A DNA stretch of 32,718 nucleotides from an uncultured Eubacteriales bacterium (GTDB taxonomy: Bacteria; Bacillota; Clostridia; Christensenellales; Aristaeellaceae): contig CACWZI010000063.1 of NCBI GenBank assembly GCA_902765305.1, positions 1 through 32,718 on the forward strand, in the 5' to 3' direction. Both the position numbers and the translations under genes were made by a program. This document shows positions 1,939-32,423 of this stretch, one piece after another. Below the pieces are notes generated by a model. That model had not been told where the DNA came from. It saw only the letters and a program-made list of their open reading frames with translations, and did not search any database. Position 1 is the stretch's first letter. Each line of letters begins with the position of its first letter.

Positions 1939-3216
1939 ATGATAGCAAATTATCCTCCCATGGGCTGGAACAGCTGGGACTGCTACGGCGCGGCGGTCAA
2001 CGAGGCCCAGGTGCGCCAAAACGCCGAATACATGGCGAAACATCTGAAGGACTTCGGCTGGGAGTACGTGGTGGTGGACATCCAGTGGTACAACCCCACC
2101 TCCAGCTCCCACGAATACGAGCCCTTCGCCGAGGAATGCATGGATGAATACGGCCGCTTCCTGCCGGCGGAGAACCGCTTTCCCAGCGCGACTGGCGGCG
2201 CGGGCTTCAAGCCGTTGGCCGACTATATCCACAGTCTGGGTCTGAAGTTTGGCGTCCACATCATGCGGGGCCTGCCCCGGATGGCCGCCCACCGCCGCCT
2301 GCCCATCGAGGGCAGCGCCTACACTTGCGCGGACGTGGCGAACCCCAATTCCGTCTGCGCCTGGAACCCGGACATGTACGGCGTGCGGCAGGATCACCCC
2401 GGCGCGCGGGACTACTATGACAGCATCTTCCGCCTCTACGCCCAGTGGGGCGTTGATTACGTCAAGTGCGACGACATCGCCCGGGAATACCCCCACTGCC
2501 AGCGGGAGATCGAGCTGATCAGCGCGGCCTGCCGGGGCTGCGGCCGGGACATCGTGCTGAGCCTTTCCCCCGGTCCCGCGCCGCTGGAGCAGGCGGAGCA
2601 CCTGAAGCAATACGCCAACCTGTGGCGCATCACCGACGACTTCTGGGACGAGTGGCCGCTGTTGAAAGGCATGTTCGAGCGGGCGGAGAAGTGGTGCGTT
2701 CACGCGGGGCCGGGCCACTGGCCCGACGCGGACATGCTGCCCGTGGGAGCCCTGCGACAGTGCTACGACAGCCATCCAAGGGGCGAATGGACGAACTTCA
2801 CCGAGGCCGAGCAGCGCACGATGCTGACGCTGTGGTGCATGCTGCGCTCACCGCTGATAGTCGGGGCCGAGCTGACGAAGAACGACGACTTCACCCTCGC
2901 CCTGCTCACCAACCGGGATGTGCTGGCCATCGAAAGGGAGAGCTGGTGCGCCCACCCGCTGGTTACCACGGCGGATGAATGCGCCTGGATCGCCCCGCGC
3001 AGGGACGGAACGGGCTGCTACGTGGCGGCCTTCAACCTGTCGGACCGCACCCGCCGGGTGCAGGTGGACGAAGGCTGCCTGGAAGGCGCGCCCGCCCGCG
3101 CCACCGAGCTGTGGACCGGCCGCCGAAGCGAAGCTAGTCCTTTAGGGCAGGCCCGCCGCAGCCTGATCGCAAGGCTGGCCCCCCACGACGCCGCGGTGTG
3201 GCGGGTGGACTTCTGA
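1939..3216 (+). CDS. GH27 alpha-galactosidase-like glycoside hydrolase
   Basis: A 425-residue retaining glycoside hydrolase of family 27, expected to remove terminal alpha-D-galactose (or a related alpha-linked sugar) from oligosaccharides. It has no signal peptide, so it probably acts in the cytoplasm. The family opening MGWNSWDCYG is at residues 8-17, the nucleophile is Asp178 in YVKCDD, and the acid/base is probably Asp234 in WRITDDFWDEW. The C-terminal 100 residues look like the usual beta-sandwich. The start is ATG 1939, with GAGGAG eight bases upstream. Two oddities: bases 3124-3148 of the coding region match a repeat found elsewhere in the window, and the stop TGA lies inside a 16-bp palindrome. 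GH27 also includes N-acetylgalactosaminidases and arabinopyranosidases, so the exact substrate is open. Confidence 0.9.
   Translation: MIANYPPMGWNSWDCYGAAVNEAQVRQNAEYMAKHLKDFGWEYVVVDIQWYNPTSSSHEYEPFAEECMDEYGRFLPAENRFPSATGGAGFKPLADYIHSLGLKFGVHIMRGLPRMAAHRRLPIEGSAYTCADVANPNSVCAWNPDMYGVRQDHPGARDYYDSIFRLYAQWGVDYVKCDDIAREYPHCQREIELISAACRGCGRDIVLSLSPGPAPLEQAEHLKQYANLWRITDDFWDEWPLLKGMFERAEKWCVHAGPGHWPDADMLPVGALRQCYDSHPRGEWTNFTEAEQRTMLTLWCMLRSPLIVGAELTKNDDFTLALLTNRDVLAIERESWCAHPLVTTADECAWIAPRRDGTGCYVAAFNLSDRTRRVQVDEGCLEGAPARATELWTGRRSEASPLGQARRSLIARLAPHDAAVWRVDF
3124..3148 (+). repeat. CGAAGC...AGTCCTTTAGGGC repeat, copy inside GH27 gene
   Basis: This copy reads CGAAGCGAAG then CTAGTCCTTTAGGGC and encodes SEASPLG in the hydrolase frame. 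Related copies are at 3367-3389 (diverged 3' end) and 32696-32715 (AGTCCTTTAGGGC identical). The function is unknown. Confidence 0.55.
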
Positions 3217-3243
3217 TTTGTCGCAGCGCGACAAATCAGAAGT
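3209..3243. repeat. CTGATTT palindrome copy 1, supplies GH27 stop
   Basis: A perfect 16-bp inverted repeat (acttctgatttgtcgc and its complement) with a 3-nt loop. The GH27 stop TGA at 3214-3216 is part of the left arm, giving the C-terminus VDF. No T-run follows, so it is not a typical rho-independent terminator. Confidence 0.8.
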
Positions 3244-3245
3244 CA

Positions 3246-3430
3246 GGGGTTAGGTTTTAGGGATTAGGGGTTAGGGAACGGCCGGAAAACCGAACTGTGT
3301 ACGATGTAGGGGCGCCGATGCGGCGCCCGGCTTGCAACGATGCGCGAGGTTGTACCTCGCGATCAACGAAGCGAAGCCAGTCCTTCAGCATCCTCCCCTA
3401 ACCCCTAAAACCTAACCCCTAAACCCTCAA
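3246..3430. repeat. TTAG-heptamer inverted-arm element B
   Basis: The left arm (3246-3277) is TTAGGTT, TTAGGGA, TTAGGGG, TTAGGGA in tandem. The right arm (3393-3430) is the inverted form and runs into the stop region of the diguanylate cyclase gene. The interior holds two GC-rich hairpins (3309-3329 with GGCGCC arms, and 3343-3361 with GCGAGGT/ACCTCGC arms) and a copy of the CGAAGC...AGTCC repeat at 3367-3389. It fills the gap between two convergent genes. Confidence 0.7.
3367..3389 (+). repeat. CGAAGC...AGTCC repeat, diverged copy
   Basis: CGAAGCGAAGCCAGTCCTTCAG, matching 3124-3148 except at a few positions near the 3' end. It lies inside heptamer element B. Confidence 0.5.
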
Positions 3431-6440: not shown

Positions 6441-6920
6441 TCATGCGTCCAGGTCGATATGCGCCTCCAGCACCTTTACCAGGGCCTCCAGCCCGGCCCG
6501 GTCCGCCTCCGAAAAGCGGTTTGGGACGGGACTGTCGATGTCCAGCACGGCGACGACGGCGCGGCGATTCAATTCCTTTAGGGCGCCTTTCCTGTGGATG
6601 GGCACCACGATCTCGGAATTGGAGGCGCTGTCACAGGCGATGTGCCCGGGAAATGCGTGCACATCCAGCACGAGTTGGGTCTCGTCCCGCTGGGCTGCCG
6701 TGCCGCAGACGCCCTTGCCCAGTGGAATGTGGATGCAGGCCACCTTGCCCTGGAAGGGCCCCAGCACCAGCCGGTCGCCCCGCAATAAATAAAAGCCCAC
6801 CCAGTTCACATCCGCCAGCGCGTCGAACAGCAGCGCCGCCGCGTTCGCCATCAACGGCACATACCAGTTGTCGGCTTCCGCGAAGCTCTGAAGCTGGGCC
6901 CCCAGTAATTCATAGTCCAT
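6441..6920 (-). CDS. msrC: Free methionine-(R)-sulfoxide reductase, GAF type
   Basis: A small cytoplasmic GAF-domain enzyme (159 residues, normal for the family) that reduces free methionine-R-sulfoxide, protecting against oxidants. The three conserved cysteines used in the fRMsr cycle are present at Cys62 (GKVACIHIP), Cys72 (GKGVCGT) and Cys96 (GHIACDSASNSEIVVPI). The ATG at 6920 follows AGGAGG with good spacing. A hairpin at 6391-6422 closes the gene. The upstream gap to tatD is filled with heptamer element C and a palindrome, and no clear promoter was seen there. Confidence 0.93.
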   Translation of the reverse strand: MDYELLGAQLQSFAEADNWYVPLMANAAALLFDALADVNWVGFYLLRGDRLVLGPFQGKVACIHIPLGKGVCGTAAQRDETQLVLDVHAFPGHIACDSASNSEIVVPIHRKGALKELNRRAVVAVLDIDSPVPNRFSEADRAGLEALVKVLEAHIDLDA

Positions 6921-6939: not shown

Positions 6940-7113
6940 TTAAGGTTTTAGGTTTTAGGTTATAGGTGTCAGGGGATGTGGAAATCCTTGCGGATTTCTT
7001 TGATTAAATGATTAATGATCGTTGATAACCCAGTCTTTTCCTTAGTTAAATCAAACAAATCCCGAAGGGATTTGAACCTCCCCCTAAAACCTAACCCCTG
7101 AAACCTAATCCCT
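6940..7113. repeat. TTAG-heptamer inverted-arm element C
   Basis: The left arm (6941-6975) has units such as TTTAGGT and TCAGGGG. The right arm (7079-7113) is the complement of TTAGGGA, TTAGGTT, TCAGGGG, TTAGGTT, TTAGGGG. Inside are two inverted copies (6981-7008 and 7047-7074) of the AATCAAA-AAATCCCG-GGGATTT module also present in element A. It fills most of the tatD to msrC gap and abuts the palindrome at 7114. Confidence 0.7.
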
Positions 7114-7154
7114 AAATTCTGATTTATCGAGCACAGCTCGATAAATCAGAATTT
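7114..7154. repeat. CTGATTT palindrome copy 2, supplies tatD stop
   Basis: A perfect 19-bp inverted repeat (aaattctgatttatcgagc and its complement) with a 3-nt loop. The tatD stop TGA (minus strand, 7148-7146) lies in the arm, so the protein ends GIKF. Confidence 0.8.
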
Positions 7155-7979
7155 GATCCCCATCGCCCTGTTTGCGTTCTCCCACAGCTGTTCGGCGAGA
7201 GCTTCCGGGGCCGCCTGGCGCAGGGCGGCCACCTTCTCAAAGGTGTGAACGATAAACGCGGGCTCGTTGCGCCGTCCCCTCAGGGGCACCGGGGCCATGT
7301 AGGGACAATCCGTCTCGATAAGCAGCCGGTCCGAAGGCACCTTTTGGGCAACCTCTGCCAGCTTTGGGGCGTTCTTGAAGGTCACCGCGCCGGAAAGGCT
7401 GATGTACAGTCCCAGATCCAGGTACACCTTCGCGCTTTCCCAGCTGCCCGTATAGCAGTGCATGATGCCCCCGGGCATGCGGCCCGCCCGTGCCCGGGTG
7501 CGCAGCATATCCATGCAGTCGCCGTGGGCCTCACGGATGTGCAGCTGCACCGGTACATTCTGCTCGAAGGCCATGTCCAGCTGGATGTCGAATACCCTGC
7601 GCTGGTCGTCCCGGGGGGAAAGGTCGTAGTGGTAATCCAGACCGATCTCCCCCAGCAGGCGGCATTTGGGGTGCTTCAGGCAGCCCGTCACCGTGCCCTC
7701 GGCGTCGGCGTCCCAGCCCGAGGCGTTGTGGGGATGCACCCCGACGGCGCCGTAGAGAAAGTCGTACCGGTCCACCAGTGAAAAGACCTTCTTCTCGTTG
7801 CCGACGGCCACCAGCCTGCCGCCCTCGTCCTCGGGGCCATCGTAGATCGCCTCCCGGGGGTCGGCCACCACCAGCGCGCGCTGAACGCCGGCGTCGAAAA
7901 AGCGCTGTATGACCGCATCGCGGTCCCCGTCAAAGCGGGGATCCGCGATGTGGCAGTGGGTATCAAAGAGCCTGATCAT
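7146..7979 (-). CDS. tatD: TatD-family metal-dependent DNase
   Basis: A cytoplasmic TIM-barrel metallohydrolase of the TatD family (277 residues), linked to DNA 3'-5' exonuclease and repair activity. The metal-binding signatures are the N-terminal FDTHCHIAD, the mid HIREAHGD, GGIMHCYTGS and the C-terminal ETDCPYMAP. The ATG at 7979 lies one base past the metG stop at 7981, so the two are translationally coupled; metG-tatD is a common pair in Bacillota. The gene should be controlled by the upstream Met T-box. The last two residues and stop come from a repeat palindrome. Confidence 0.94.
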   Translation of the reverse strand: MIRLFDTHCHIADPRFDGDRDAVIQRFFDAGVQRALVVADPREAIYDGPEDEGGRLVAVGNEKKVFSLVDRYDFLYGAVGVHPHNASGWDADAEGTVTGCLKHPKCRLLGEIGLDYHYDLSPRDDQRRVFDIQLDMAFEQNVPVQLHIREAHGDCMDMLRTRARAGRMPGGIMHCYTGSWESAKVYLDLGLYISLSGAVTFKNAPKLAEVAQKVPSDRLLIETDCPYMAPVPLRGRRNEPAFIVHTFEKVAALRQAAPEALAEQLWENANRAMGIKF

Positions 7980-9993: not shown

Positions 9994-10013
9994 TAATTAG
10001 GAATGAGGAATGA
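9994..10013. repeat. Single TTAG-heptamer arm in metG leader
   Basis: ATTAGGAATGAGGAATGAG: three 7-nt units of the type found in element A, without a partner arm. It lies between the metG ribosome binding site and the 63-nt hairpin. Confidence 0.55.
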
Positions 10014-10076
10014 GTTGTCATGGGGACGGTTCTCCTGGCAACATTTTGTTGTCAGGAGAACCGTCCCCATGACAAC
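10014..10076. repeat. 63-nt near-perfect hairpin (REP-like) in metG leader
   Basis: Two 29-nt arms (10014-10042 and 10048-10076) around a 5-nt loop, with one G-T pair. The arms contain ATGGGGACGGTTCTCC and its complement. No T-run follows on either side. It sits between the T-box terminator and metG, so it would be transcribed in the leader. The shape is like REP or MITE palindromes, but no transposase is in the window. Confidence 0.75.
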
Positions 10077-10088
10077 TATTCTGTCCCC

Positions 10089-16398: not shown

Positions 16399-16402
16399 CG
16401 GG

Positions 16403-17692: not shown

Positions 17693-17698
17693 AAATCA

Positions 17699-18400: not shown

Positions 18401-18421
18401 TTGATTGTCCTCCAAAACAGA

Positions 18422-19137: not shown

Positions 19138-19163
19138 TCGCCCACCTCCTTTTTTGTAATTCA

Positions 19164-19192
19164 ATTATATTACATTGTCATTCAAAAAGCAA
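19164..19192 (-). promoter_or_regulatory. Sigma-A promoter for the toxin-antitoxin operon
   Basis: TTGCTT (19192-19187), 17-bp spacer, TATAAT (19169-19164) on the minus strand, about 27 bases before the antitoxin ATG. Confidence 0.68.
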
Positions 19193-19215
19193 GTAAATAA
19201 GCATCGAATGCACCA

Positions 19216-20587: not shown

Positions 20588-20629
20588 GAATTTCCTCCAA
20601 ACGTTGGGTCCTGTCAGAACACGGATAAC

Positions 20630-20660
20630 TTCTGATTTATCGGAGAGCGACAAATCAGAA
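20630..20660. repeat. CTGATTT palindrome copy 4, supplies PBP4B-like stop
   Basis: 13-bp arms (ttctgatttatcg and cgacaaatcagaa, one mismatch) with a 5-nt loop. The stop TGA of the upstream minus-strand gene (20657-20655) lies in the arm, so that protein ends GKF. Confidence 0.75.
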
Positions 20661-22589: not shown

Positions 22590-22783
22590 AATGATGATGA
22601 ACTCCATTTTCAAGGATTATTGCGTCACGGGCGAGAGCCGAACCGAGCCGCAATTATAGCTTATCACAATTTTCCCCCACTGGCAAGGGCTGATGCAATG
22701 CGGAAGATTATGGTTCGCGTGAATTCCGGTTTCGCTCTCCATTGGATCGAAGGTGCCCTTTCTGCCCTGGCTGCATTTTTTTC

Positions 22784-22812
22784 TTGCCTGTATGGAGCAT
22801 TTATGTTAATAT
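22784..22812 (+). promoter_or_regulatory. Promoter for the symporter-hydrolase-cupin operon
   Basis: TTGCCT (22784-22789), 17-bp spacer, TAATAT (22807-22812), with TG one base before the -10 (extended -10). It lies 45 bases before ATG 22857. Confidence 0.55.
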
Positions 22813-22856
22813 TATGGCATACCCGGTAAATGGTACATCAGGGGGAGGAGACTTTC

Positions 22857-24224
22857 ATGACGCAAACAAAGAAGCTCTCAACCGGCAAGGTGTGGTGCTT
22901 TGCGGTGGGCCAGTTCGGCTGGTCGGTGCTGGCGGCGCTGATCTCCAGCTGGCTGGTGAACTACTACCAGCCCGACCTGGCCACCCAGCAGGCGGGCCAG
23001 CCCATATTCATTCCCCAGGGGCTGGCGATACTGGGGGTGCTGACGGTGCTGGGGGCCATCACGGCCTTCGGGCGCATATTCGACGCCATCACCGACCCGC
23101 TGATCGCGTCGCTGTCGGACCGCTGCAAGTCGAAGGACGGGCGGCGCATACCGTTCATGCGAGCGGCGGCGGTGCCCTTTGCGCTGAGCTGCATACTCAC
23201 GTTCTGGTCCCCTGTGAACGGCGTAAGCTGGGTGAACGCCGCCTTCCTGTTTTTGATGCTGATGCTTTTCTATCTCTTCATGACGATGTACTGCACGCCC
23301 TACAACGCGCTCATCCCGGAGCTGGGCAGCAACCAGCAGACCCGCATGGCCATCTCAACGTCCATATCCTTCACTTACATCGCCGGCATGGCCATGGCCT
23401 ACCTGGCCCCGGTGATCTGGAGCGCGCTGCAGGGCGCGGGCCTGGAGCGGGTGACAGCCATCCGGGTGACCTTCACCGGCATGTCGCTGATCGGCATGGT
23501 CTGCATGTTCGTGCCGGTGTTCACGATCCGGGAGAAGGACTACGTCGTGGCCGTGCCCAGTGAATCCACCGCGCTGAAATCCCTGGGCGCCACCTTCCGC
23601 AACCGGGATTTCCGGGTGTTCGTGGCCTCGGACATCGCCTATTTCCTGGGCATCACCATGTTCCAGACGGCGCTGCCCTTCTTCGTCACCTCGCTACTGA
23701 AGCTCGACGAGGGCATGAGCACGGTGTACTTCGTGCTGATGACCGCGCTGTCGGTGCTGTTCTACGTGCCCGTGAACCGGCTGACGCCGAAATTCGGCAA
23801 GAAGAAGCTGATACTGTTCGCCTTTGTCGTATTTACGATCAGCTTCGTCTACACCGCCTTCTTCGGCAGTGCGCTGCCCATCCCGCCGGCGGTGCAGGGC
23901 TACATCCTCTGCGTGGTGGCGGCCCCGGCCATGGCCATATTCGGCATACTGCCCCAGGCCGTGGTGGCGGACATCGCCGAGTGCGACGCTCTGGAGACCG
24001 GCGAGAACCGCAGCGGCATGTTCTATGCCGCCCGCACCTTCGCCTTCAAGCTGGGCCAGTCCATCGCCATGCTGCTGGTGACCGCCTTCGCCACCATCGG
24101 CCAGGAGACCGGCGCCGGCTACCGCATCACCGCCGTCGCCGCAGCCGCGGTCTGTGTGCTGGGCGGCGCGCTGTTCATGGTGTATAATGAGAAGCGGGTA
24201 TACGCAAAAATAATGAGGAATTAG
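22857..24224 (+). CDS. GPH-family sugar:cation symporter (MFS)
   Basis: A 455-residue membrane transporter of the glycoside-pentoside-hexuronide family, expected to bring in small glycosides with Na+ or H+. About twelve hydrophobic segments are visible (for example VLAALISSWLVNYY, AAFLFLMLMLFYLFMTMY, AVAAAAVCVLGGALFMVY). The loop with DAITDPLIASLSDRCKSKDGRR (residues about 80-101) and the NALIPEL motif are family signatures. ATG 22857 has GGGAGGAG eight bases upstream. The last codons (MRN, TAG) fall in a TTAG-heptamer run. The substrate is unknown; the nearby GH27 and GH127 genes suggest plant oligosaccharides. Confidence 0.9.
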   Translation: MTQTKKLSTGKVWCFAVGQFGWSVLAALISSWLVNYYQPDLATQQAGQPIFIPQGLAILGVLTVLGAITAFGRIFDAITDPLIASLSDRCKSKDGRRIPFMRAAAVPFALSCILTFWSPVNGVSWVNAAFLFLMLMLFYLFMTMYCTPYNALIPELGSNQQTRMAISTSISFTYIAGMAMAYLAPVIWSALQGAGLERVTAIRVTFTGMSLIGMVCMFVPVFTIREKDYVVAVPSESTALKSLGATFRNRDFRVFVASDIAYFLGITMFQTALPFFVTSLLKLDEGMSTVYFVLMTALSVLFYVPVNRLTPKFGKKKLILFAFVVFTISFVYTAFFGSALPIPPAVQGYILCVVAAPAMAIFGILPQAVVADIAECDALETGENRSGMFYAARTFAFKLGQSIAMLLVTAFATIGQETGAGYRITAVAAAAVCVLGGALFMVYNEKRVYAKIMRN

Positions 24225-24244
24225 AAATGAGGAATGAGGAATTG
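24213..24244. repeat. Single TTAG-heptamer arm over the symporter stop
   Basis: Units TGAGGAA, TTAGAAA, TGAGGAA, TGAGGAA in tandem. The symporter stop TAG (24222-24224) is part of a unit. No partner arm is nearby. Confidence 0.55.
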
Positions 24245-24256
24245 GAAGTGTCTGCC

Positions 24257-25240
24257 ATGAGTGATGCGCGCTTCAATCCCGATGGGCTGGTTCTGTCCGG
24301 GCATTATACGGAGACGATGAATGAGATCGTGCTGCCCTGGCTGGCGGCGCGGCGGACGGACGCCACCGTGGAGGGAAAAGATGGAAGACCGCTGTTTTGC
24401 TGCCGGTTTGACGCTGAAACGCCCAGGGGCACGGTGGTGATCGTCCACGGCTTCACCGAGAACGCCGACAAGTACGCAGAATTGATCCATTCGCTGCTGC
24501 GGTGCGGCTACAGCGTGATTGCCTACGACCAGCGGGGGCACGGGCGCTCCTGGCGCGACCCGGCGATCACGGACATCTCCCTGACCCACGTGGACCGGTT
24601 TGTGGAATACGTGGACGACCTGAAATCCGTGTGCGACGCGGTGCTGAAGGCCATGCCCCGGCCCTGGCTGCTGTTTGCCCACAGCATGGGCGGCGCGGTT
24701 TCGTCGCTGTTCCTGGAAAACAACGCCGGCGTGTTCGAAAAGGCGGCGCTGTGCGCGCCGATGATCGCCCCAAACCTGGGCGGGCTGCCCCCGGTGGCGG
24801 GGAAACTGATGTGTGCCACGGCCAAACGGCTGGGCGGAGACAAGAAGCGCGTGCTGTTTTCTAGACCCTACGCCGGGGCTGAGAATTTTGAAACCTCCTG
24901 CGCCACAGGCCGGGAGCGATTCGAATGGTACGACGCCCTGCGGGTCAGGACCCCCGAATTCCAGAACAATGGCCCCACCTACGGCTGGACTTGGGAGGCG
25001 ATTTGGGCGTCGAAGGCCGTATTGGCCCCCGGCACGGTGGAGCGCATCGACATCCCGATGTGGCTGTTCACCGCCGAAGACGACAACTCCGTGATGCCCG
25101 ACGCCCAGAAGGCCTTCGCCGCGCGGCTGCGCGACGGCAAGCGGACCCTGGTGCCCGGCTCGAAGCACGAGATCTACCGCTCCCCGGATGCGGTGCTGTT
25201 CGGGTGGTGGCGAGGGATATTGGATTTTTGGAAGGCGTAA
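24257..25240 (+). CDS. Alpha/beta hydrolase, lysophospholipase / monoacylglycerol lipase type
   Basis: A 327-residue serine hydrolase of the PldB-like (hydrolase_4) group, acting on lysophospholipids or monoacylglycerols in relatives. The nucleophile is Ser143 in FAHSMGGAVS, the acid is Asp275 or Asp276 in FTAEDDNSV, and the base is His304 in GSKHEIYR. The oxyanion region is VHGFTENADKY. There is no signal peptide. ATG 24257 was chosen because GGAAG precedes it; ATG 24227 lies inside the repeat run and would add ten repeat-encoded residues. It follows the symporter by 32 bases and is probably cotranscribed with it. The stop TAA touches a palindrome. Confidence 0.88.
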   Translation: MSDARFNPDGLVLSGHYTETMNEIVLPWLAARRTDATVEGKDGRPLFCCRFDAETPRGTVVIVHGFTENADKYAELIHSLLRCGYSVIAYDQRGHGRSWRDPAITDISLTHVDRFVEYVDDLKSVCDAVLKAMPRPWLLFAHSMGGAVSSLFLENNAGVFEKAALCAPMIAPNLGGLPPVAGKLMCATAKRLGGDKKRVLFSRPYAGAENFETSCATGRERFEWYDALRVRTPEFQNNGPTYGWTWEAIWASKAVLAPGTVERIDIPMWLFTAEDDNSVMPDAQKAFAARLRDGKRTLVPGSKHEIYRSPDAVLFGWWRGILDFWKA

Positions 25241-25280
25241 ATTCTGATTTATCGAGCAACAGCTAGATAAATCAGAATTA
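25239..25280. repeat. CTGATTT palindrome copy 5
   Basis: 19-bp arms with two mismatches (aaattctgatttatcgagc and gctagataaatcagaatta) and a 4-nt loop. It starts within the TAA of the hydrolase and fills the gap to the cupin ribosome binding site. Confidence 0.78.
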
Positions 25281-25299
25281 ATAAACAGGAGGTACGAAT

Positions 25300-25629
25300 A
25301 TGAAAGCCAATGTAGTCTATCACGCTGACACAGTTTTGAACGACCTGGGCGGCGGGGTTTCCCGGCGGGTGCTGGCTTATACGCCCCAGCTGATGATCGT
25401 GGAGGTCAACTTTGAAAAGGGCAGCGAGGGCACCGTGCATACCCATCCCCACTGCCAGAACACCTATGTACGCTCCGGCCGCTTCCGCTTCAATGTGGAT
25501 GGCGAGGCCGTGGAGGTCGGCCCCGGCGATACGCTGGCCTTTCCGTCCGGCATCCCCCATGGCACGCTGTGCCTGGAGGCGGGTGCGCTGCTGGACATCT
25601 TCGCCCCGATGCGCGAGGATTTTGTGTAG
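25300..25629 (+). CDS. Small single-domain cupin
   Basis: A 109-residue beta-barrel protein with both cupin motifs: the metal-binding HTHPHCQNTYVRSGRFRF (residues 47-64) and PGDTLAFPSGIPHGT (about 75-89). The histidines could bind a metal. Such small cupins act as sugar isomerase-like enzymes, dioxygenases or ligand sensors; the sequence does not decide. ATG 25300 has AGGAGG eight bases upstream. It is probably the last gene of the symporter-hydrolase-cupin operon, closed by the hairpin at 25660. Confidence 0.88.
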   Translation: MKANVVYHADTVLNDLGGGVSRRVLAYTPQLMIVEVNFEKGSEGTVHTHPHCQNTYVRSGRFRFNVDGEAVEVGPGDTLAFPSGIPHGTLCLEAGALLDIFAPMREDFV

Positions 25630-25659
25630 CGTACGACTGACCGAGGTTAAATGTTTGAG

Positions 25660-25689
25660 AGCGCCTTTCTTCGCTTGAAGAAAGGCGCT
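25660..25689. terminator. Hairpin overlapping the next promoter
   Basis: A 12-bp perfect stem (agcgcctttctt and aagaaaggcgct) with a 6-nt loop, 30 bases past the cupin stop. The tail (taatcaattat) is A/T-rich without a T-run. The right arm overlaps the -35 box and spacer of the promoter at 25675-25703. Confidence 0.55.
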
Positions 25690-25703
25690 TAATCAATTAT
25701 AAT
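25675..25703 (+). promoter_or_regulatory. Sigma-A promoter for the methyltransferase-GH127 pair
   Basis: TTGAAG (25675-25680), 17-bp spacer, TATAAT (25698-25703), about 75 bases before ATG 25778. Confidence 0.75.
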
Positions 25704-25777
25704 AGAATATGGAATAATAGGGGGAAATGGTTTCTTCTTTTGACTGTAGAAAGAAGCCAGCGTATGGAGAAAAAGCG

Positions 25778-26908
25778 ATGGAATGGATAGCGAGCGCCGC
25801 CTTTGGCATGGAAGGCATGACCGGGCGGGATCTGAAGCACATGGGCATGAAAAACGTCCGGGTGATGGACGTGGGAGGCGCGTCGTTCGAGGGCAACTTC
25901 GAGGACGCCTTCCGGGCGAACCTGTGGCTGCGCACCTGCGATCGGATCATGCTGGTGATGGCCCGATTCGAGGCCCGAAGCTATGAGGAACTGTTCCAGG
26001 GCGTGAAGGCCGTCGACTGGCAGAAGCTGCTGCCGGCGGACGCGGCCTTCCCGATCCGCGCCCGGTGCGTAAAATCCCAGCTGATGAGCCCGTCGGACGT
26101 GCAGAAGATCGCCAAGCGGGCCATGGTGGAAAAGCTGAAGACCACCTATGGGGCGGACTGGTTTTCCGAGACCGGGGCCGTGTTCCAGGTGGATATATCC
26201 ATACGCAATGACATGGTCACCGTGGCGGTGGACGCCTCCGGAGAGCCGCTTTCGAAGCGGGGCTACCGCACCTGGAACGGCGAGGCGCCCCTGCGGGAGA
26301 CACTGGCGGCGGCGCTGGTGCTGCAGAGCGGCTGGCACCCCTGGCAGCCGCTGCACGACCCCTGCTGTGGCACGGGCACGGTACTGATCGAGGCGGCCTT
26401 CATCGCCCTGAACCGCGCCCCTGGGCTGACCCGCAAATTCGCCATGGAGGCCTGGCCCTGCGTTCCCCACGCCGCGCTGGACGCGATTCGCGCCGAGGCC
26501 CGGAAGAAGTTCGAGGAGGGCAGCCGGCGGCCGCTGGCCGTGTCCGGCAGCGATATCAACCCCGAGGCCATCGAGCTGGCCACCCGCCACGTGAAGCAGG
26601 CGGGACTGGCGGGGCGCATCGCACTTTCAGTGAAGGACATGCGGGCGCTGAACCCCGGTGACGACCTTCCCTTGGAGCCGACAGGCGTATTCGTGGCCAA
26701 TCCGCCCTACGGCGAGCGACTGGACAACCAACGGGCAGCCCACGCCGTGGCCAAACAGCTGGGCGAGCTGCAAAGGCGCTTCAGGGGCTGGAAGCTGTGC
26801 GCCTTCAGCGCCGACACACTCTTCGAGCAGGCCTATGGCCGCCGGGCCACCCGGCGCAGGCGTTACTATAACGGCAGGATCGAATGTGAATATCGTATAT
26901 TCGAATAA
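25778..26908 (+). CDS. THUMP-domain rRNA N2-guanine methyltransferase (RlmL/YpsC type)
   Basis: A 376-residue SAM-dependent RNA methyltransferase. The N-terminal 60 residues are a ferredoxin-like segment, followed by a THUMP RNA-binding domain (about 60-150) and a Rossmann methyltransferase domain (about 160-376). The SAM site is HDPCCGTGTVLIEAA, and the catalytic motif FVANPPYGERL (NPPY) is that of N2-guanine enzymes. RlmL homologues methylate 23S rRNA; the exact position in this organism is inferred only. The start is ATG 25778, with GGAG nine bases upstream. GH127 follows 14 bases after the stop, so the two are cotranscribed despite unrelated roles. Confidence 0.9.
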   Translation: MEWIASAAFGMEGMTGRDLKHMGMKNVRVMDVGGASFEGNFEDAFRANLWLRTCDRIMLVMARFEARSYEELFQGVKAVDWQKLLPADAAFPIRARCVKSQLMSPSDVQKIAKRAMVEKLKTTYGADWFSETGAVFQVDISIRNDMVTVAVDASGEPLSKRGYRTWNGEAPLRETLAAALVLQSGWHPWQPLHDPCCGTGTVLIEAAFIALNRAPGLTRKFAMEAWPCVPHAALDAIRAEARKKFEEGSRRPLAVSGSDINPEAIELATRHVKQAGLAGRIALSVKDMRALNPGDDLPLEPTGVFVANPPYGERLDNQRAAHAVAKQLGELQRRFRGWKLCAFSADTLFEQAYGRRATRRRRYYNGRIECEYRIFE

Positions 26909-26922
26909 ATAGAGGTGCAGAC

Positions 26923-28851
26923 ATGAAACCCATCTTCAACAGGGCGCCCCTGACGCCGAATACCCTTTCCCCGCTTCCCCTGGGCAGCATCCGCCCCGAA
27001 GAATGGCTGCTTGAGCAGCTGCAAACCCAGCGCGACGGCCTGACCGGCGGGCTGGATGAGCGGTGGTCAGACCTGGGGCCGGAGTCCGGCTGGCTGGGCG
27101 GCCCGGGCAATTGCGGTGAAAACGCGCCCTATTATCTGGATGGGTTGGTGGCCCTGGCCTGGACGCTGGACGACGAGGCACTGAAGGCCAAGGCCATGCG
27201 CTACATCGAGTGGATCCTGGCCAGCCAGCGGGAGGACGGCTGGTTCGGCCCGGAGCGCAACGACGATTACTGGCCGCTGATGATCGCGCTGAAGGCCCTG
27301 CGCCAGTATTTCACCGCCACCAACGACCGGCGGGTGCTGGTGCTGATGGATAGGTTCTTCAAGTACCAGGTGGCCCACCTGAACGACCACCCGCTGAAGG
27401 CGTGGGCCGTGGCCCGGGGCGGCGAGAACATGGAGCTGGCGCTGTGGCTGTACAACATCACCGGCCAGAAGCACCTGCTGGAGCTGTGCAAAAAGCTGCG
27501 GGCCCAGACGCTGGACTGGCCGAATTACTTCCACACCTTCGCCAACACCGTGCCCATGAGCCGCTCGCTGAAGTGGGACCGGCTGAAGGAGGCCCTGGAG
27601 GAGGAGCGGGAGGAGCCCCTGGAGGGGGAAAAGCGCCCCTATTTCCACACCCAGTTCCACCTGTCCCACGGCGTAAACATCGCCATGGGCCTGAAGACCC
27701 CCGGCGTGATCAACCTGTTCAAGTCGGGCTTCAAGGAGGAGGGCGGTTTCCGCTTCGGCTGGAGCAAGCTGGTGCGCCACCACGGCGTGGCCAGCGGCAT
27801 GTTCATCTGCGACAAGCATCTCAACGGCAACAGCCCCACCCAGGGCTCCGAGCTCTGCGCCATCGTGGAACTGATGAGCACGCTGGAGACGCTGCTGGGT
27901 CTGGGGGATTTCAACGCCGAATACGCCGACATACTGGAAAAGATCGCCTACAACGCGCTGCCCGCGGCCTTCTCGGCAGACATGACCGCCCACCAGTGCC
28001 AGGAGCAGGTCAACCAGGTGAAGGTGTCCCGGGAACCGCGCAGGTGGTACAACTGCACCGACGGCGCGAACCTGTTCGCCGCGGTGCCGGACGAGGACTG
28101 CTGCGCCGCCAACTGCGGCCAGGGGTGGCCCAGGTTTGTTGCGTCGCTGTGGTATGCCACCGCCGATGGCGGCCTGCAGGCCGTCAGCTACGCGCCCTGC
28201 ACGGTGCGCGCGGTGCTGGACGGCGTGCCGGTGCGCCTGCAGGTCAGCGGCAGCTATCCCTTCAGCCAGTCGGTGGAGATTCGGGTATCCGTCAAGAAGC
28301 CCTGTGAATTCCCGCTTTACCTGCGCATGCCCGCCTGGATCCGCCAGCCCATGGTGTTCCTGCCGGACGGCGAAATCATGCAGGTGCGGGCAGGCGATGT
28401 CAGCTGCGTGCGCCGCCGCTGGCGCTCCGGCGACGTGATCCGCCTGGAGATGGGCACGGTGCCCCGCCTGACCAAGTGGTATCACCAGTCCGGGGCAGTG
28501 GAGCTGGGGCCGCTGCTGATGGCCCTGCAGCCCGAAGAGATCCGGGAAAGGACGGAAAATGACGACTGGCAGGTGACCGCCGGGAGCCCCTGGAACTGGG
28601 CGCTGGTGCGGGATGAGCCCATGAAGGCCGTGTACAGCGGCGCACGCCCCGGCGCCTTCGGCAAGGGAGAAGCGCCGGTGAAGGTGCTGGTGAAGGCCGT
28701 GCCGGTGGATTGGCACATGGACGGTAACAGCTGCGCCAGCGTACCGATGGTGCCGACGGTGCGGGAAAAGGACGCCCAGGTGATCGAGCTGGTGCCCTTC
28801 GGCGGCACAACGCTGCGCATCGGCCAGTTCCCACTGGGACGGGGAAAGTAG
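26923..28851 (+). CDS. GH127-family beta-L-arabinofuranosidase
   Basis: A 642-residue glycoside hydrolase of the DUF1680/GH127 group, which removes beta-L-arabinofuranose from plant glycans such as extensin-linked arabinans. The family's zinc and nucleophile cluster is present: GSELC (Glu310, Cys312) and EDCCAANCG (Cys393, Cys394), equivalent to the Glu/Cys/Cys/Cys set of characterised members in which a cysteine is the nucleophile. The (alpha/alpha)6 barrel spans about 20-420, and the beta-sandwich follows. There is no signal peptide, so imported oligosaccharides are the likely substrates. GH146 and other DUF1680 families are alternatives. ATG 26923 has AGAGG about eight bases upstream. A strong hairpin at 28863 ends the operon. 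Confidence 0.9.
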   Translation: MKPIFNRAPLTPNTLSPLPLGSIRPEEWLLEQLQTQRDGLTGGLDERWSDLGPESGWLGGPGNCGENAPYYLDGLVALAWTLDDEALKAKAMRYIEWILASQREDGWFGPERNDDYWPLMIALKALRQYFTATNDRRVLVLMDRFFKYQVAHLNDHPLKAWAVARGGENMELALWLYNITGQKHLLELCKKLRAQTLDWPNYFHTFANTVPMSRSLKWDRLKEALEEEREEPLEGEKRPYFHTQFHLSHGVNIAMGLKTPGVINLFKSGFKEEGGFRFGWSKLVRHHGVASGMFICDKHLNGNSPTQGSELCAIVELMSTLETLLGLGDFNAEYADILEKIAYNALPAAFSADMTAHQCQEQVNQVKVSREPRRWYNCTDGANLFAAVPDEDCCAANCGQGWPRFVASLWYATADGGLQAVSYAPCTVRAVLDGVPVRLQVSGSYPFSQSVEIRVSVKKPCEFPLYLRMPAWIRQPMVFLPDGEIMQVRAGDVSCVRRRWRSGDVIRLEMGTVPRLTKWYHQSGAVELGPLLMALQPEEIRERTENDDWQVTAGSPWNWALVRDEPMKAVYSGARPGAFGKGEAPVKVLVKAVPVDWHMDGNSCASVPMVPTVREKDAQVIELVPFGGTTLRIGQFPLGRGK

Positions 28852-28862
28852 CCCTTGCAGAT

Positions 28863-28910
28863 GAATCGCCCCCGATTTGATCCATGCAAATCGGGGGCGA
28901 TTCACTTTAT
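28863..28910. terminator. Bidirectional terminator hairpin
   Basis: A 17-bp perfect stem (28863-28879 and 28887-28903) with a 7-nt loop, between convergent genes. The tail on the plus strand is ACTTTAT, so the stem is strong and the T-run weak. Confidence 0.8.
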
Positions 28911-28913
28911 CGG

Positions 28914-30122
28914 TCACTTCGTCTTCGGAAACAGCGTATCCTTGGCGTAGTTGCCGCGCTTGGTGGACTGGGCGGTGCGGTTGGCCGGGGCTTCAAAGTT
29001 GAAGCAGAAGTAGTAAGCCGCGTCGTAGGCGCCCTCGGCGGTATTCTCCACCTGGCGGATGTAGCTGTCCACCGAGGGATAGAAGTTGGGCAGCTCATAT
29101 TGCAGGTACCTCATCTGGCCTTCCACGGAATTGTAGTCCAAGCCTTTTTCGGTGCACCAGTTGATCAGGCGCGTCTTGCGGCCGGCGTGCCACTGGCACA
29201 GGCCGTAGCTGGTGCCGCCATCGCCGTCGATCACGGCCTTGTAGCCGGATTCCCAGTAGATGTTGGCCATCACGCCCATCGTTGCGGCGCGGTTCAGCTT
29301 CATTTCATTGATCAGAAAGTCGAAGATGATGTACTCGTTGCTGCCTGCGGTGAAGGGATTGGCCTTGGACTTGGATTCGCTCACGGGCTGGGTGGTCGCA
29401 GGCGCGCTGTCCTTGCTCAGGCAGGCCACCGGCAGATAGCCGATCATGCTGTTGCGGGTCACCATGGCTACCTCGCCGTTCACAGCCAGCAGCGTCAGCT
29501 TGTAGCCCTTGCGCACAGTCACGGCTTCGCCGGAATAATCGGGGTTTTCGTAAATCTGAGCCTCCACCAGGGTGACCACGGGCATATTGACGCTTTGCGC
29601 CGGCGCGGCGGTGGATGCTGCAGACGCGCTCAGGTGACTGTAGAGCATGTAGCCCACCCTGCCGTCCATTGAAACCTGGGCGTAAGCGCCGTTTACGGAA
29701 AGCACCTGCACCTTCACACCCGCCTGAAGCGTGACGTACTGGCTGGCCGCACTGGGCCGGCGGTAGACGCGCGTCTGCTGATTGGTGAACATGGACTGGC
29801 CCGGGGTTGGGGTAGCCGACGCCGTGGGTGCCGCGGACTGGGCGACGCGGGACATCTCGGAAACCCGGGCGACACCGGTGATCAAGCCAGCGCTGATCAG
29901 CGCCGCCTTGCCCGACCAGGCCAACACCGTCACCACGGTGCCCCGGGGCAGCGTGGTCAACACGTCGTGAGGCTTTGCCTGGGCATATACCTTCATACCG
30001 TCCACCGAGACGACCGCTTCAAAGTTGCCCTCGGCCAGGGCCTGCGGCAGGGCTGTCAGCAAAAGCGCCAGGGCCAGCAGCAATACGAGGAAGCGTTTGA
30101 CCGGCGAATATGTAACTCTCAT
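28914..30122 (-). CDS. Exported SH3-like / phage-tail-lysozyme cell-wall hydrolase
   Basis: A 402-residue secreted protein. Residues 1-30 are a signal peptide (FLVLLLALALLLTALPQALA). Three SH3-like modules occupy about 33-90, 115-165 and 183-236 (QTRVYRRPSAASQYVTLQAG, AQIYENPDYSGEAVTV), separated by Ser/Ala/Thr/Pro linkers. Residues 263-395 match the phage-tail-lysozyme fold, with the likely catalytic Glu291 in MANIYWESGYKAV and SYGLCQWHAGRKTRL. It should bind and cut peptidoglycan outside the cell. ATG 30122 follows GGAG at spacing 8. It has a near-consensus promoter at 30161-30189, implying high expression. Confidence 0.88.
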   Translation of the reverse strand: MRVTYSPVKRFLVLLLALALLLTALPQALAEGNFEAVVSVDGMKVYAQAKPHDVLTTLPRGTVVTVLAWSGKAALISAGLITGVARVSEMSRVAQSAAPTASATPTPGQSMFTNQQTRVYRRPSAASQYVTLQAGVKVQVLSVNGAYAQVSMDGRVGYMLYSHLSASAASTAAPAQSVNMPVVTLVEAQIYENPDYSGEAVTVRKGYKLTLLAVNGEVAMVTRNSMIGYLPVACLSKDSAPATTQPVSESKSKANPFTAGSNEYIIFDFLINEMKLNRAATMGVMANIYWESGYKAVIDGDGGTSYGLCQWHAGRKTRLINWCTEKGLDYNSVEGQMRYLQYELPNFYPSVDSYIRQVENTAEGAYDAAYYFCFNFEAPANRTAQSTKRGNYAKDTLFPKTK

Positions 30123-30160
30123 GGCTGTTTCTCCAGTACACAGATTTTCATTGTGCACTG

Positions 30161-30189
30161 ATTATAGCACTTGTTACAATAAATGTCAA
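30161..30189 (-). promoter_or_regulatory. Consensus sigma-A promoter for the cell-wall hydrolase
   Basis: TTGACA (30189-30184), 17-bp spacer, TATAAT (30166-30161) on the minus strand: a perfect match to both hexamers. Confidence 0.88.
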
Positions 30190-30234
30190 TGATTTTTAAT
30201 ACTTTTGAAATAAGATGAAAAATCCCATATGGTG

Positions 30235-30723
30235 TTAAGACAATATGACATCCTGCCAGCCCTTGCACACGTCCACCCACCCGGCAAAGTTCTGCGCCGC
30301 GGCCTCGAGGGCGTCACAGCTCAGCTCGATGGCGCTGTTTGCGCTGCCGCAGGCGGGAAACACCGTGTCAAAGCGCTTCAGCGAGACATCCAGCCAGGTG
30401 CGCACGTCGTCCTTGATGGCGAAGGGGCACACGCCCCCCACGGCATGGCCGATGCGCATGGCGACCTTGTCTGCGCTGAGCATCTTCGCCTTGGCATGGA
30501 AATGGGCCTTGAAGCGGGGGTTGTCGATGCGGGCGTCCCCGGCTGTCACCAGCAGGATCGGCCCATCCGGCAGCATCAGGCTCAGGCTCTTGGCAATGCG
30601 CGCCGGGATCACCCCCGCCGCCTGCGCCGCCAGCTCTACCGTGGCGCTGGAGGTTTCAAACTCAAGGATCCTGCCCGAAAGGCCCAGAGGGGTCAGGTAT
30701 TCGCGAACGTTTTGGATAGACAT
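30235..30723 (-). CDS. YbaK/EbsC-family aminoacyl-tRNA deacylase
   Basis: A 162-residue cytoplasmic protein of the YbaK/ProX superfamily, which frees mischarged amino acids from tRNA (Cys-tRNA(Pro) in YbaK, Ala-tRNA(Pro) in ProX). Family motifs include ARIAKSLSLML, RIDNPRFKAHF and the active-site region RIGHAVGGVCPFAI. The catalytic lysine of YbaK corresponds to the lysine in IAKSL. Length is normal. ATG 30723 has AAGGAAG upstream. It follows the CI/LexA-like gene on the same strand with a palindrome between, and may be cotranscribed. The exact mischarged substrate is open. Confidence 0.9.
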   Translation of the reverse strand: MSIQNVREYLTPLGLSGRILEFETSSATVELAAQAAGVIPARIAKSLSLMLPDGPILLVTAGDARIDNPRFKAHFHAKAKMLSADKVAMRIGHAVGGVCPFAIKDDVRTWLDVSLKRFDTVFPACGSANSAIELSCDALEAAAQNFAGWVDVCKGWQDVILS

Positions 30724-30745
30724 GGGTTTCTTCCTTTCTTTGAAT

Positions 30746-30782
30746 AAATTCTGATTTGTCGCTCCGCGACAAATCAGAATTT
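30746..30782. repeat. CTGATTT palindrome copy 6
   Basis: A perfect 17-bp inverted repeat (aaattctgatttgtcgc and complement) with a 3-nt loop. It overlaps the last base of the CI/LexA-like stop codon (30784-30782). Confidence 0.8.
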
Positions 30783-31459
30783 CACAGCCTCCCCGTAAAC
30801 CCCACCGCCAGGCCGAGGATGCGGATCACGCCGCATTCGGCCAGGGTGAACATCATCGGGGGATACTTGGGGTTTTCCGACAGCAGCTGCAGGCCGTTCT
30901 TCACGTGATACACCCGCTTCAGGGTGGCTTCGTCGTCGATGACCACCGCGGCGATCTGCCCGTCCGCCACATCGTCCTGGCGGCGGATGAAGACCACGTC
31001 GCCGTCGTGGATGCGGGCGCCGATCATGCTGTCGCCCTTTACCCGCAGGGCAAAGTCACAGTGGATACCGGTTTCGCAGTCCGCCACGGCCAGATCCTGC
31101 TCGGCGTAGATGGGCGTGCCCGCGGCGATCGTGCCCAGCAGCGGCACCCGGCGGGTCAGCACAGGCAGCAGATTGTCGAACCAATGGGCCTGTGCCCCAT
31201 CGCCCAGGCGGCGCACGCCCGGTATGTCCGCCGGTTGCGGGGGCGGCACGGCCGCGGAGCCACCGTTGTCGCTGAGCCATTCCAACGGGCATTCCAGTGC
31301 CTCCGCCAGGGCCTTCAACGTGCTGATGGTGGGATTGCGGGTCTCGCCGTTGAGCACCTTGTTGATCGTGCCCTTCGGTATGCCGGATTTCAACGACAGC
31401 GCGTCGGTGGTCAGTCCGCGCCGCGCCTTCAGCCGCGCCAGCTTTTCGCTCAGCTTCAC
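30782..31459 (-). CDS. CI/LexA-like self-cleaving repressor (HTH + S24)
   Basis: A 225-residue repressor. Residues 3-62 are a Cro/CI HTH (RRGLTTDALSLKSGIPKGTI, NKVLNGETRNPTISTL). Residues 105-222 form an intact S24 domain with an Ala113-Gly114 cleavage site in LLGTIAAGTPI, catalytic Ser144 in KGDSMIGARIHDGD and Lys181 in EATLKRVY. It should repress until RecA-stimulated cleavage after DNA damage. The start is a GTG at 31459 with AGGAGG nine bases upstream. It faces the two phage-type genes across an intergenic region with ACCG-N4-CGGT operators, like a temperate-phage switch. Confidence 0.9.
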   Translation of the reverse strand: MKLSEKLARLKARRGLTTDALSLKSGIPKGTINKVLNGETRNPTISTLKALAEALECPLEWLSDNGGSAAVPPPQPADIPGVRRLGDGAQAHWFDNLLPVLTRRVPLLGTIAAGTPIYAEQDLAVADCETGIHCDFALRVKGDSMIGARIHDGDVVFIRRQDDVADGQIAAVVIDDEATLKRVYHVKNGLQLLSENPKYPPMMFTLAECGVIRILGLAVGFTGRL

Positions 31460-31486
31460 CGTCGCTCACCTCCTGTATATATGCCA

Positions 31487-31515
31487 ATTATACCATATGA
31501 AAAGCTGTATAACAA
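31487..31515 (-). promoter_or_regulatory. Promoter for the CI/LexA-like repressor
   Basis: TTGTTA (31515-31510), 17-bp spacer, TATAAT (31492-31487) on the minus strand. The operator-like site at 31526-31537 lies just upstream of the -35. Confidence 0.68.
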
Positions 31516-31525
31516 GCACAATCTA

Positions 31526-31537
31526 ACCGAACACGGT
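31526..31537. promoter_or_regulatory. Operator-like palindrome O1
   Basis: ACCG-AACA-CGGT: 4-bp half sites 4 bases apart. It has the same half-site and spacing as O2 and lies between the two divergent promoters. Confidence 0.5.
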
Positions 31538-31557
31538 ATTAATTTTTAAAAATACGG

Positions 31558-31586
31558 TTGATTTCTAACCGTTTTCGGTTTATAAT
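31558..31586 (+). promoter_or_regulatory. Promoter for the phage-type two-gene cassette
   Basis: TTGATT (31558-31563), 17-bp spacer, TATAAT (31581-31586), about 52 bases before TTG 31638. The spacer contains operator O2, so a bound repressor would block polymerase. Confidence 0.8.
31567..31580. promoter_or_regulatory. Operator-like palindrome O2 in the cassette promoter
   Basis: AACCG-TTTT-CGGTT, a perfect 5+4+5 palindrome exactly between -35 and -10. A further CGGTT half site is at 31555-31559. The likely binding protein is the divergent CI/LexA-like repressor. Confidence 0.65.
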
Positions 31587-31637
31587 GTACAGGAATCAAG
31601 AACATTTGTTCGATTATGATAGGAGGGAACGGCGCCA

Positions 31638-32099
31638 TTGGATGTCAAAGGGAAGATTGAACAGCTGAAGCAGCTCAGGTATTTGAAGGGTGAAGTGATA
31701 CTGCTCACCCAGCGCCTCGAACGACTGGAGACCGAGATCACGGGAAATACACGCTGCCGATGGCGGGGACGGGCGACCCTGGAATATGGGGCACAGCTCG
31801 TCGCCCTGAGAGACGCCCTTGCTGCGAGGCGCGCCACTTGCATGGCACAGCTTGGCGCACTGCATCGCTACATCGACAGCATCGATGACAGCAGGATGCG
31901 GCAGATCATGGCCGGCCGCTATGTGGACGGCCTGAGCTGGAAGGAAGTGGCGGCGCGCATCGGCGAGCGTGACGAACAGTATCCCCGCAGGCTGCACAAT
32001 CGCTTCCTGTTGCAGAGCACGCTGCCTGCTTCACTGTCAACAGAGCGGGAATCACTCAGCGACGCGAAGGACCCGGATAGGAGGAACAGAATTGGATAA
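31638..32099 (+). CDS. Phage-type activator with sigma-like HTH (RinA/ArpU/DUF1492-like)
   Basis: A 153-residue basic protein. Residues 1-40 form an N-terminal coiled coil (KIEQLKQLRYLKGEVILLTQ). Residues 83-130 form a sigma-region-4-like HTH (IDDSRMRQIMAGRYVDGLSW, KEVAARIGERDEQYPRRLHN). This layout is typical of small late-gene activators found before the terminase genes of Bacillota prophages. The start is TTG 31638, with AGGAGG about 12 bases upstream, rather long. It overlaps the next gene by 8 bases. It should be repressed through O2. Confidence 0.78.
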   Translation: MDVKGKIEQLKQLRYLKGEVILLTQRLERLETEITGNTRCRWRGRATLEYGAQLVALRDALAARRATCMAQLGALHRYIDSIDDSRMRQIMAGRYVDGLSWKEVAARIGERDEQYPRRLHNRFLLQSTLPASLSTERESLSDAKDPDRRNRIG

Positions 32100-32412
32100 G
32101 CATGAAGACAAGAAGGGCCAGGTCGTCTGGCTGGCCGGCCTGCCGCTGGTGCTGCATTACACGATCAACAGCCTGTGCGCGATGGAGGCGCGGGCGGATA
32201 TGCCCCTTGACGAGCTGATGCACCATCATTTCAGCGCGACCCGGCTATTGCTGTGGGCAGGCCTGCGCCAGAATTACCGATATTTAACGGTATGGGACGC
32301 GGGTGAACTGATCACCGAGCACCTGCAAAGGGGCGGCACGTTGCAGGAGGTCATCGAGCTCTGCGCCGACAGCCTGCGGGCGTCGGGGCTGATAGAGGAG
32401 GAGAAATTCTGA
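32092..32412 (+). CDS. Phage tail assembly chaperone-like small protein
   Basis: 106 residues. The pattern (LVLHYTINSLCAMEARADMP, SATRLLLWAGLRQNYRYLTV, WDAGELITEHLQRGG) resembles small phage tail assembly chaperones of the GTA-gp10/TAC kind, in which LLWAGL is followed by a TxxDAGxLI segment. This is pattern-based and not proven. The start is TTG 32092, with AGGAGG seven bases upstream. The stop TGA and the final KF come from a palindrome half copy. In phages this gene sits inside the tail operon; here it directly follows the HTH gene and nothing phage-like follows. Confidence 0.6.
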   Translation: MDKHEDKKGQVVWLAGLPLVLHYTINSLCAMEARADMPLDELMHHHFSATRLLLWAGLRQNYRYLTVWDAGELITEHLQRGGTLQEVIELCADSLRASGLIEEEKF

Positions 32413-32423
32413 TTTATCGAGCT
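32404..32423. repeat. CTGATTT palindrome, half copy supplying a stop
   Basis: Aaattctgatttatcgagct, one arm only. It carries the TGA (32410-32412) of the tail-chaperone-like gene. Confidence 0.6.

Follow-up and report, generated by a model that had tools for sequence, protein, structure and literature searches.

A mobile hairpin found at gene ends forms part of a genus-specific family of MITE/REP-type repeats in related rumen bacteria

A palindrome with the arm AAATTCTGATTTRTCG is dispersed through a 32,718-nucleotide stretch of DNA from an uncultured Eubacteriales bacterium of the Aristaeellaceae (assembly GCA_902765305.1, contig CACWZI010000063.1, positions 1 to 32,718; hereafter the window), and several of its copies coincide with the ends of genes. 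Here we describe this palindrome as a mobile sequence that has spread through a few related rumen bacteria. Our preferred explanation, to which we give a probability of about 0.62, is that it provides the inverted-repeat ends for a superfamily of small mobile elements, non-coding and specific to the genus, that are similar in kind to miniature inverted-repeat transposable elements (MITEs) and repetitive extragenic palindromes (REPs); this figure covers both the proposed mobilization by IS66 and the tolerance of copies at gene ends. An IS66-family transposase of the ISBst12 group would move, or would once have moved, the intact forms in trans, and copies without outer ends would be derived forms or would have been moved by another route. 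A copy landing on, or coming to lie on, the last codons or native stop of a gene would leave protein length nearly unchanged and hence be tolerated, as would other stop-rich repeats in these genomes, and genes would end at the arm because the arm edge carries stop codons.

Abundance and distribution

The arm query ATTCTGATTTRTCG matched the window 15 times at up to three mismatches, with 2.5 matches expected and a maximum of six in any shuffle; a chance origin of the window palindromes is not supported. Fourteen of the matches are the arms of six palindromes and two half copies; the fifteenth, at position 11477 with three mismatches, is chance-like. An earlier sequence-only reading of this stretch had listed six full copies (3209, 7114, 17587, 20630, 25239 and 30746), all of which were recovered at these positions, but the half copy it placed at 32404 belongs to a 422-bp element, of which it forms the left end, the second arm being located just past the window end.

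The genome from which the window derives (G000; 3.88 Mb in 177 contigs, probably metagenome-assembled) contains the 13-base arm TTCTGATTTRTCG 118 times in forward and 113 times in reverse orientation, giving 231 copies, and no copy of a reversed control. Arm matches number 628 in G008. A search for the hairpin core GATTTRTCG-N3-12-CGAYAAATC was positive for 11 of 28 genomes of the genus, with 293 instances in G000, 255 in G008, 133 in G041, 26 in G017, 14 in G001 and one to three in each of six further genomes, and gave zero in the other 17. G001 is included among the 11, but its core is a related one that sits in a different element and is not treated as the same form. No core was found in 390 other sampled genomes of the class, one of which belongs to the same family. 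Copies with identical flanks were removed by script. The copies are thus many rather than few in the genome and in a few of its relatives, in keeping with the dispersed repeat originally proposed. A scan of named genomes returned at least 110 stretches and, among the matches listed, all were of Clostridia type, with names referring mostly to rumen or gut samples. Carriage by known viruses was not supported, the two-arm pattern being present in no stretch of a viral contig collection.

Element forms and site polymorphism

Three forms were distinguished in 0.39 Mb of G000 and at other loci. Some copies are solo hairpins, others are two-hairpin elements, and a third form consists of longer inverted-repeat elements in which the arms are single and the interiors unrelated. 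Solo hairpins measure 31–38 bp and have stems extending to GTCGC (G-type) or to ATCGAGC (A-type). A two-hairpin element has a G-type hairpin at one end and an A-type hairpin at the other, and between them inverted period-7 arrays enclose small stem-loops. The 214 complete elements comprised 136 solo hairpins (GG 69, AA 48 and AG 19 by arm type), 38 two-hairpin elements and 40 others. Constancy of the arms and variability of the loops, as noted from the window alone, were borne out in aligned hairpins. The arm is preceded by GGY, each base in about half of cases, and the arm boundary reads GGYAAA at both ends. Like MITEs, these elements are short and non-coding and have terminal inverted repeats.

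The occupancy of orthologous sites also follows the presence/absence pattern of MITEs: a given site may be without an arm or be occupied by a solo hairpin or a two-hairpin element, and in 12 of 32 comparisons the counterpart of an occupied site has no arm. No arm is present at the 25239 site in G009, where G008 has a remnant (judged by eye), or at the 30746 site in G009, G002 and G013. In several of these occupied/no-arm pairs, the segment between the flanks differs from an exact pre-insertion site, and a search by joined flanks found no exact empty site within the sample. Solo and two-hairpin forms occur at the same orthologous site at five loci, seen from both sides, and at site 20630 two relatives carry a two-hairpin element of which the window's hybrid hairpin represents just the outer arms. 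The solo forms fit loss of the two-hairpin middle by recombination or slippage between hairpins, with the direction not proven. Neither of the two pairs of neighbouring arms lying 400–4500 bp apart in 1.38 Mb encloses a transposase gene; one (L034) is a 422-bp element, which has no room for such a gene, and the other (L048) is a composite whose listed open reading frames (ORFs) are non-transposase by eye.

Genes that end at the repeat

Gene calls came from a codon model for which 155 long ORFs served as the training set, and 445 distinct edges yielded 253 genes reading towards an element; gene-end counts used a threshold of 240 nt and a score of 15. Three exact offsets account for the stops of 114 of the 253 genes, every other offset holding between zero and four: 58 genes stop one base before TTCTG (mostly with TAA), 13 two bases before it (mostly with TGA) and 43 on the arm's own TGA. 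The other 139 genes facing an edge do not stop there. Where coding DNA reaches the edge (n=104), 95 genes stop there, two at −8, one at −7 and six at +7, +16 or beyond, indicating that copies are placed non-randomly with respect to stop codons, as first suspected. A recount based on 168 elements found 75 of 149 flush, 11 within 15 nt upstream, 61 farther away and two beyond; the orientation of genes around these elements was convergent for 23, co-directional for 86, divergent for 16 and undetermined for 43. The arm edge GGTAAATTCTGA carries TAA and TGA, and hence stops in two frames.

Orthologues of at least 60% identity were available for 49 of the 114 flush genes, and for 17 the orthologue was free of arm-like sequence near the stop. 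The length difference was zero in 10 of these 17 and at most two residues in 14, with values of 9, 27 and 49 for the rest, so that protein length is usually unchanged. Some seemingly empty orthologues bear decayed arms when inspected by eye, among them G008 at site 25239 and L163 for the gene at 20630.

Gene-end contact is not peculiar to the palindrome, because period-7 arrays lying more than 120 bp from any arm also end genes, between −10 and +20, in 49 of 113 cases through built-in stop codons. The flank consensus GGYAAA is the same where no gene is called towards the edge. The proposal that the element targets gene ends is upheld as to real contact with them (114/253), whereas targeting itself is unproven, since the period-7 repeats end genes as well. 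We read this contact as tolerance combined with stop-codon recruitment, and regard true targeting as a minority view.

Outer repeats and a proposed IS66 link

For 25 of 30 cases, the distance outwards from the arm to an outer inverted repeat, GTAACTGTTCAGTC, is 7 or 9 bases. At a threshold of 10 or more of 14 bases, this repeat was present at 52 of 542 edges with 1.4 expected. Following this finding, we revised an assignment of the junction between AAA and TTCTG as the true transposon end. Of 67 outer-repeat pairs, 12 show a duplication that matches at 7 or more of 8 bp (0.28 expected); seven of the 12 enclose an arm, one of them being a 75-bp solo-hairpin element. Counted by element (n=233), the outer repeat is found at neither end in 207, at one end in 15 and at both ends in 11, and some of the 15 one-ended elements resemble decayed two-ended ones by eye.

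Members of the IS66 family have GTAA ends and 8-bp repeats. Such ends and duplications occur in some of the outer-repeat minority but not in other copies, which include all those of the window, these being of the short class with no outer repeat and no duplication. In a minority of copies, the outer ends and 8-bp duplications are probable marks of IS66/ISBst12-type miniature transposons. For comparison, one end of the published element ISDge4 (ISBst12 group, IS66 family) reads GTAACTGCTCAGCA, and its repeat is 8 bp long (PMC12898284). Two partial IS66-transposase frames, one above and one below the Pfam cut-off and both cut by contig ends, are present in the genus member G006, with an exact GTAACTGTTCAGTC 14-mer about 110 bp past the stop of each; G006 itself has no hairpin. 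The search for an autonomous partner covered IS66 genes in eight genomes; in the copy-rich ones among these, it yielded no autonomous IS66 copy with GTAACTGTTCAGTC ends.

Two further observations concern these sequences. On contig C64 of G000 (L299/L306), two ORFs lie upstream of an IS66 transposase gene that encodes 544 aa. Exact copies of GTAACTGTTCAGTC are most numerous, among the 28 genomes searched, in G001, where there are 117 (L290–L298); the hairpin element of this genome, GGGGATTTGTCGGGC, is a different one that has ends of the GTTACCATTCAG type and, at L294, an exact 8-bp duplication, amounting to a parallel burst.

Weighing of alternative explanations

A number of findings weigh against a superfamily mobilized by IS66 and tolerated at gene ends. 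The edges other than the 52 with the outer repeat (about 90%) resemble shuffled sequence, no direct repeat of 2–9 bp at the arm boundary was clearly above chance in 211 elements, and five arm-bearing outer-repeat pairs have no duplication. Independent erosion of ends would give about 198, 34 and 1.5 elements with the outer repeat at neither, one and both ends (hand-worked) rather than the observed 207, 15 and 11; the two ends are correlated, and end-by-end erosion was accordingly rejected as the sole cause of missing outer repeats. No IS66 gene was found in G008, and that of G000 has no end matching the outer repeat in the stretch examined, which ends at a contig end. At gene ends, the frames of flush stops are split 31:13:51 as against about 67:2:26 predicted from the edge alone, so that the edge sequence does not account for everything and native stops lying at the junction are probably involved as well, and the period-7 control spans 31 positions against the three exact offsets of the arm and so is looser. 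Finally, gene calling is imperfect: in validation (150 nt, score >10) the codon model accepted 59% of segments read in frame but also 16% of those read out of frame, and it missed the GH27-type gene at 3209.

A rival explanation is a separate insertion process that would recognize stop codons or their surrounding sequence and place hairpins exactly at the termination codon without duplication. The three exact offsets at which 95 of 104 edge-reaching genes stop, the usually unchanged protein length, the departure of frames from the prediction for the element sequence and the lack of duplication in 211 elements all speak for this process, but arm-free period-7 arrays also end genes, 139 of 253 facing genes do not stop at the edge and the GGYAAA flank does not depend on a gene being called, and we consider it unlikely. 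It is just as improbable, in our estimation, that the majority of hairpins, having no outer ends and no duplication, were placed through recognition of termination codons or gene ends, with one-for-one replacement of stops across many genes. A REP or bacterial interspersed mosaic element (BIME) moved by a Y1 transposase of the REP-associated (RAYT) type, with the two-hairpin form as the BIME, is an explanation that draws on the short, high-copy, near-perfect hairpins, on the two-hairpin pairs, on the location mostly at gene 3′ ends and on the Y1 genes of all four copy-rich genomes (three matches in G000 and two each in G008, G017 and G041), among which G008 and G017 share a gene that is near-identical by its first 60 residues. 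However, Y1 genes occur in 16 of the 28 genus genomes, hairpin-free ones included, and G042 and G022 have nine and seven Y1 matches with no hairpin. The TnpA-REP link suggested from the window was not supported: when 15 Y1 loci were scanned for perfect stems of at least 11, none had the palindrome within 700 bp (two of the loci lay near a contig start, which leaves a short flank), and the three Y1 loci of G000 had no arm at up to three mismatches. Other hairpins were found at seven of the 15 loci, and motifs resembling GGGGACGG or GGGGACAGG were present at four of the seven. End logos contained no unpaired GTAG tag at one end, alignment and end logos contained no CGTC tag with a CCA-like tail (PMC3733652), the ends are symmetrical, and DDE-type ends and 8-bp duplications mark some of the copies. 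A REP/BIME origin thus seems rather unlikely; what survives of the REP-type designation is a dispersed, high-copy, mobile and non-terminator element, whereas strict REP membership is not supported, the palindrome being near none of the 15 Y1 loci scanned.

A role as a 3′-end RNA structure is a possible candidate function on sequence grounds. As an explanation in its own right, it would have a hairpin that owes only its origin to mobility and is kept by selection to stabilize mRNA, to serve as a site of processing or to act as a weak terminator in both directions. Folding of three window hairpins gave −22.8, −26.9 and −28.0 kcal/mol with stems of at least 17 pairs (z −8.4 to −11.7), and copies are located at gene ends. 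An alignment was made of 71 hairpins, hand-picked from distinct listed hairpins and the window copies; bases pair in 94.4% of its pair cells, and eight of the 17 pairs show changes in both partners (31 cells, with 6.1 in shuffles). This covariation supports a conserved palindrome but would not separate RNA use from matched transposon ends, since any inverted repeat with ends kept matched for transposition also covaries. The hairpin core is absent from 17 of 28 genus genomes, and orthologous genes exist without the hairpin. The lack of a T-run reported earlier was confirmed: only TTT follows the stem, and no hairpin copy in 16000–32718 was called terminator-like, so that a classical intrinsic terminator is not supported. 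The one terminator-like call in that interval is a nested palindrome (32477–32501) within the 32404 element. There were no Rfam matches in the window at the gathering threshold, and Rfam RNA or tRNA identity was not supported. Selection for an RNA structure as the main explanation is distinctly unlikely. We retain the MITE/REP-type superfamily with proposed IS66 mobilization as the preferred reading.

Copies and neighbouring repeats in the window

The arm supplies the final Phe and the TGA stop of four genes, as originally described. At 3209–3243, a G-type hairpin with loop AGC gives the D-F-TGA end of a GH27-type gene (1921–3216; PF16499/PF17801) and is followed by period-7 arrays at 3245–3276 and, inverted, at 3395–3427, together forming a one-hairpin element. 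K-F-TGA ends are provided by the other three copies. An A-type hairpin at 7114–7154, with a stem extending to GAGC and loop ACA, ends tatD (7146–7979, minus strand; PF01026) and has period-7 arrays to its left (6943–6974 and 7081–7116). The hybrid hairpin at 20628–20663, with one A-type and one G-type arm, ends a minus-strand gene at 20655–22613 that matches PF00144 (beta-lactamase/PBP type). The forward-strand segment 32404–32718 comprises the left end and body of the 422-bp inverted-repeat element, with a GGGAACAGG-type interior and a nested palindrome, and ends an ORF at 31969–32412 that has no Pfam match.

In two more genes the stop touches the repeat, again in agreement with the earlier description. 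The A-type hairpin at 25239–25279 comes directly after the TAA (25238–25240) of an alpha/beta hydrolase gene (24227–25240; PF12146), and the edge of the G-type hairpin at 30746–30782 lies at the TGA of an S24/HTH repressor gene (30782–31459, minus strand; PF00717/PF01381). A further G-type hairpin, at 17587–17620, is followed by a period-7 array at 17622–17653 and lies towards a repressor gene on the minus strand (17699–18415). The remaining copy is a single forward-strand arm, AAATTCTGATTTGGCG, at 16410–16425 with one mismatch; no partner arm was found for it, and the ORF that this half copy would end has no Pfam match.

Other repeats share the window with the hairpin family. Period-7 arrays (AATGAGG, AGGTTTT, AGCATTT and similar) lie at 1770–1905, 3245–3427, 6943–7116, 17622–17653 and 24198–24244, often as inverted pairs that form small elements of their own. 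A 25-bp repeat resembling CGAAGCGAAGCTAGTCCTTTAGGGC occurs at 3124–3148, 3367–3391, 6560–6584 and 32691–32715, one copy being inside the GH27-type gene, and modules resembling it are present inside other elements of the hairpin family. The palindrome nested in the 32404 element is GAAAACAGTCCTGTGGACTGTTTTT, and a similar module in copies L057 and L064 indicates that family elements carry nested palindromic modules. At 10013–10077 there is a 31-bp inverted repeat containing GGGGACGGTTCTC; GGGGACGG hairpins flank Y1 genes in three relatives (L271, L273 and L278), and this inverted repeat may be the repeat of GGGGACGG-type Y1 genes.

Relation to known repeats and significance

No description of this hairpin family was found in the open-licence literature, as judged by titles and the start of abstracts. 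REPs and BIMEs of the GTAG and CGTC types are likewise small high-copy palindromes, single or paired, that lie downstream of genes, many within 20 bp of 3′ ends, and published REPs supply stop codons (PMC3733652). In contrast to these, our hairpin has a different arm, symmetrical ends and no GTAG or CGTC tag, and sits within a larger inverted-repeat family in which some members have 8-bp duplications. Resemblance to IS66 insertion sequences of the ISBst12 group and their derived MITEs rests on GTAACTGTTCAGTC and the 8-bp duplications, which recall the ends and repeat length of ISDge4 (PMC12898284), and on the identical 14-mer near the two partial IS66 frames of G006; unlike those elements, about 90% of edges here have no such ends and the hairpin arm is subterminal. 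Of QMITE1 and QMITE2 in Coxiella burnetii, QMITE2 similarly combines full-size MITEs, having inverted repeats and 7–9-bp duplications, with short forms that are essentially REPs, and it overlaps gene 3′ ends by 1–10 bp with protein sizes little changed, although sequence and host are unrelated and there are just a handful of gene-end overlaps in that account (PMC5896051). Hairpins near stop codons are also known from Escherichia coli, where 446 of 4,072 REPs predicted by RepRanger lie within 15 nt of stop codons and an effect on translation has been proposed; these REPs come after the stop (PMC12306157), whereas in the present hairpin the stop is often part of the arm itself and exact contact is commoner.

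The palindrome is therefore a genus-specific variant of MITE/REP-type repeats, and comparable gene-end behaviour is already known from other bacterial repeats. It provides a quantified case of a mobile hairpin becoming a gene end, with 114 of 253 called facing genes in the sampled loci. Annotators should bear in mind that proteins ending in Lys-Phe in these genomes can owe those residues to the repeat. Finally, REP-like solo hairpins, two-hairpin elements and IS66-type MITEs are joined in one sequence family, which bears on the origin of REP-like repeats.

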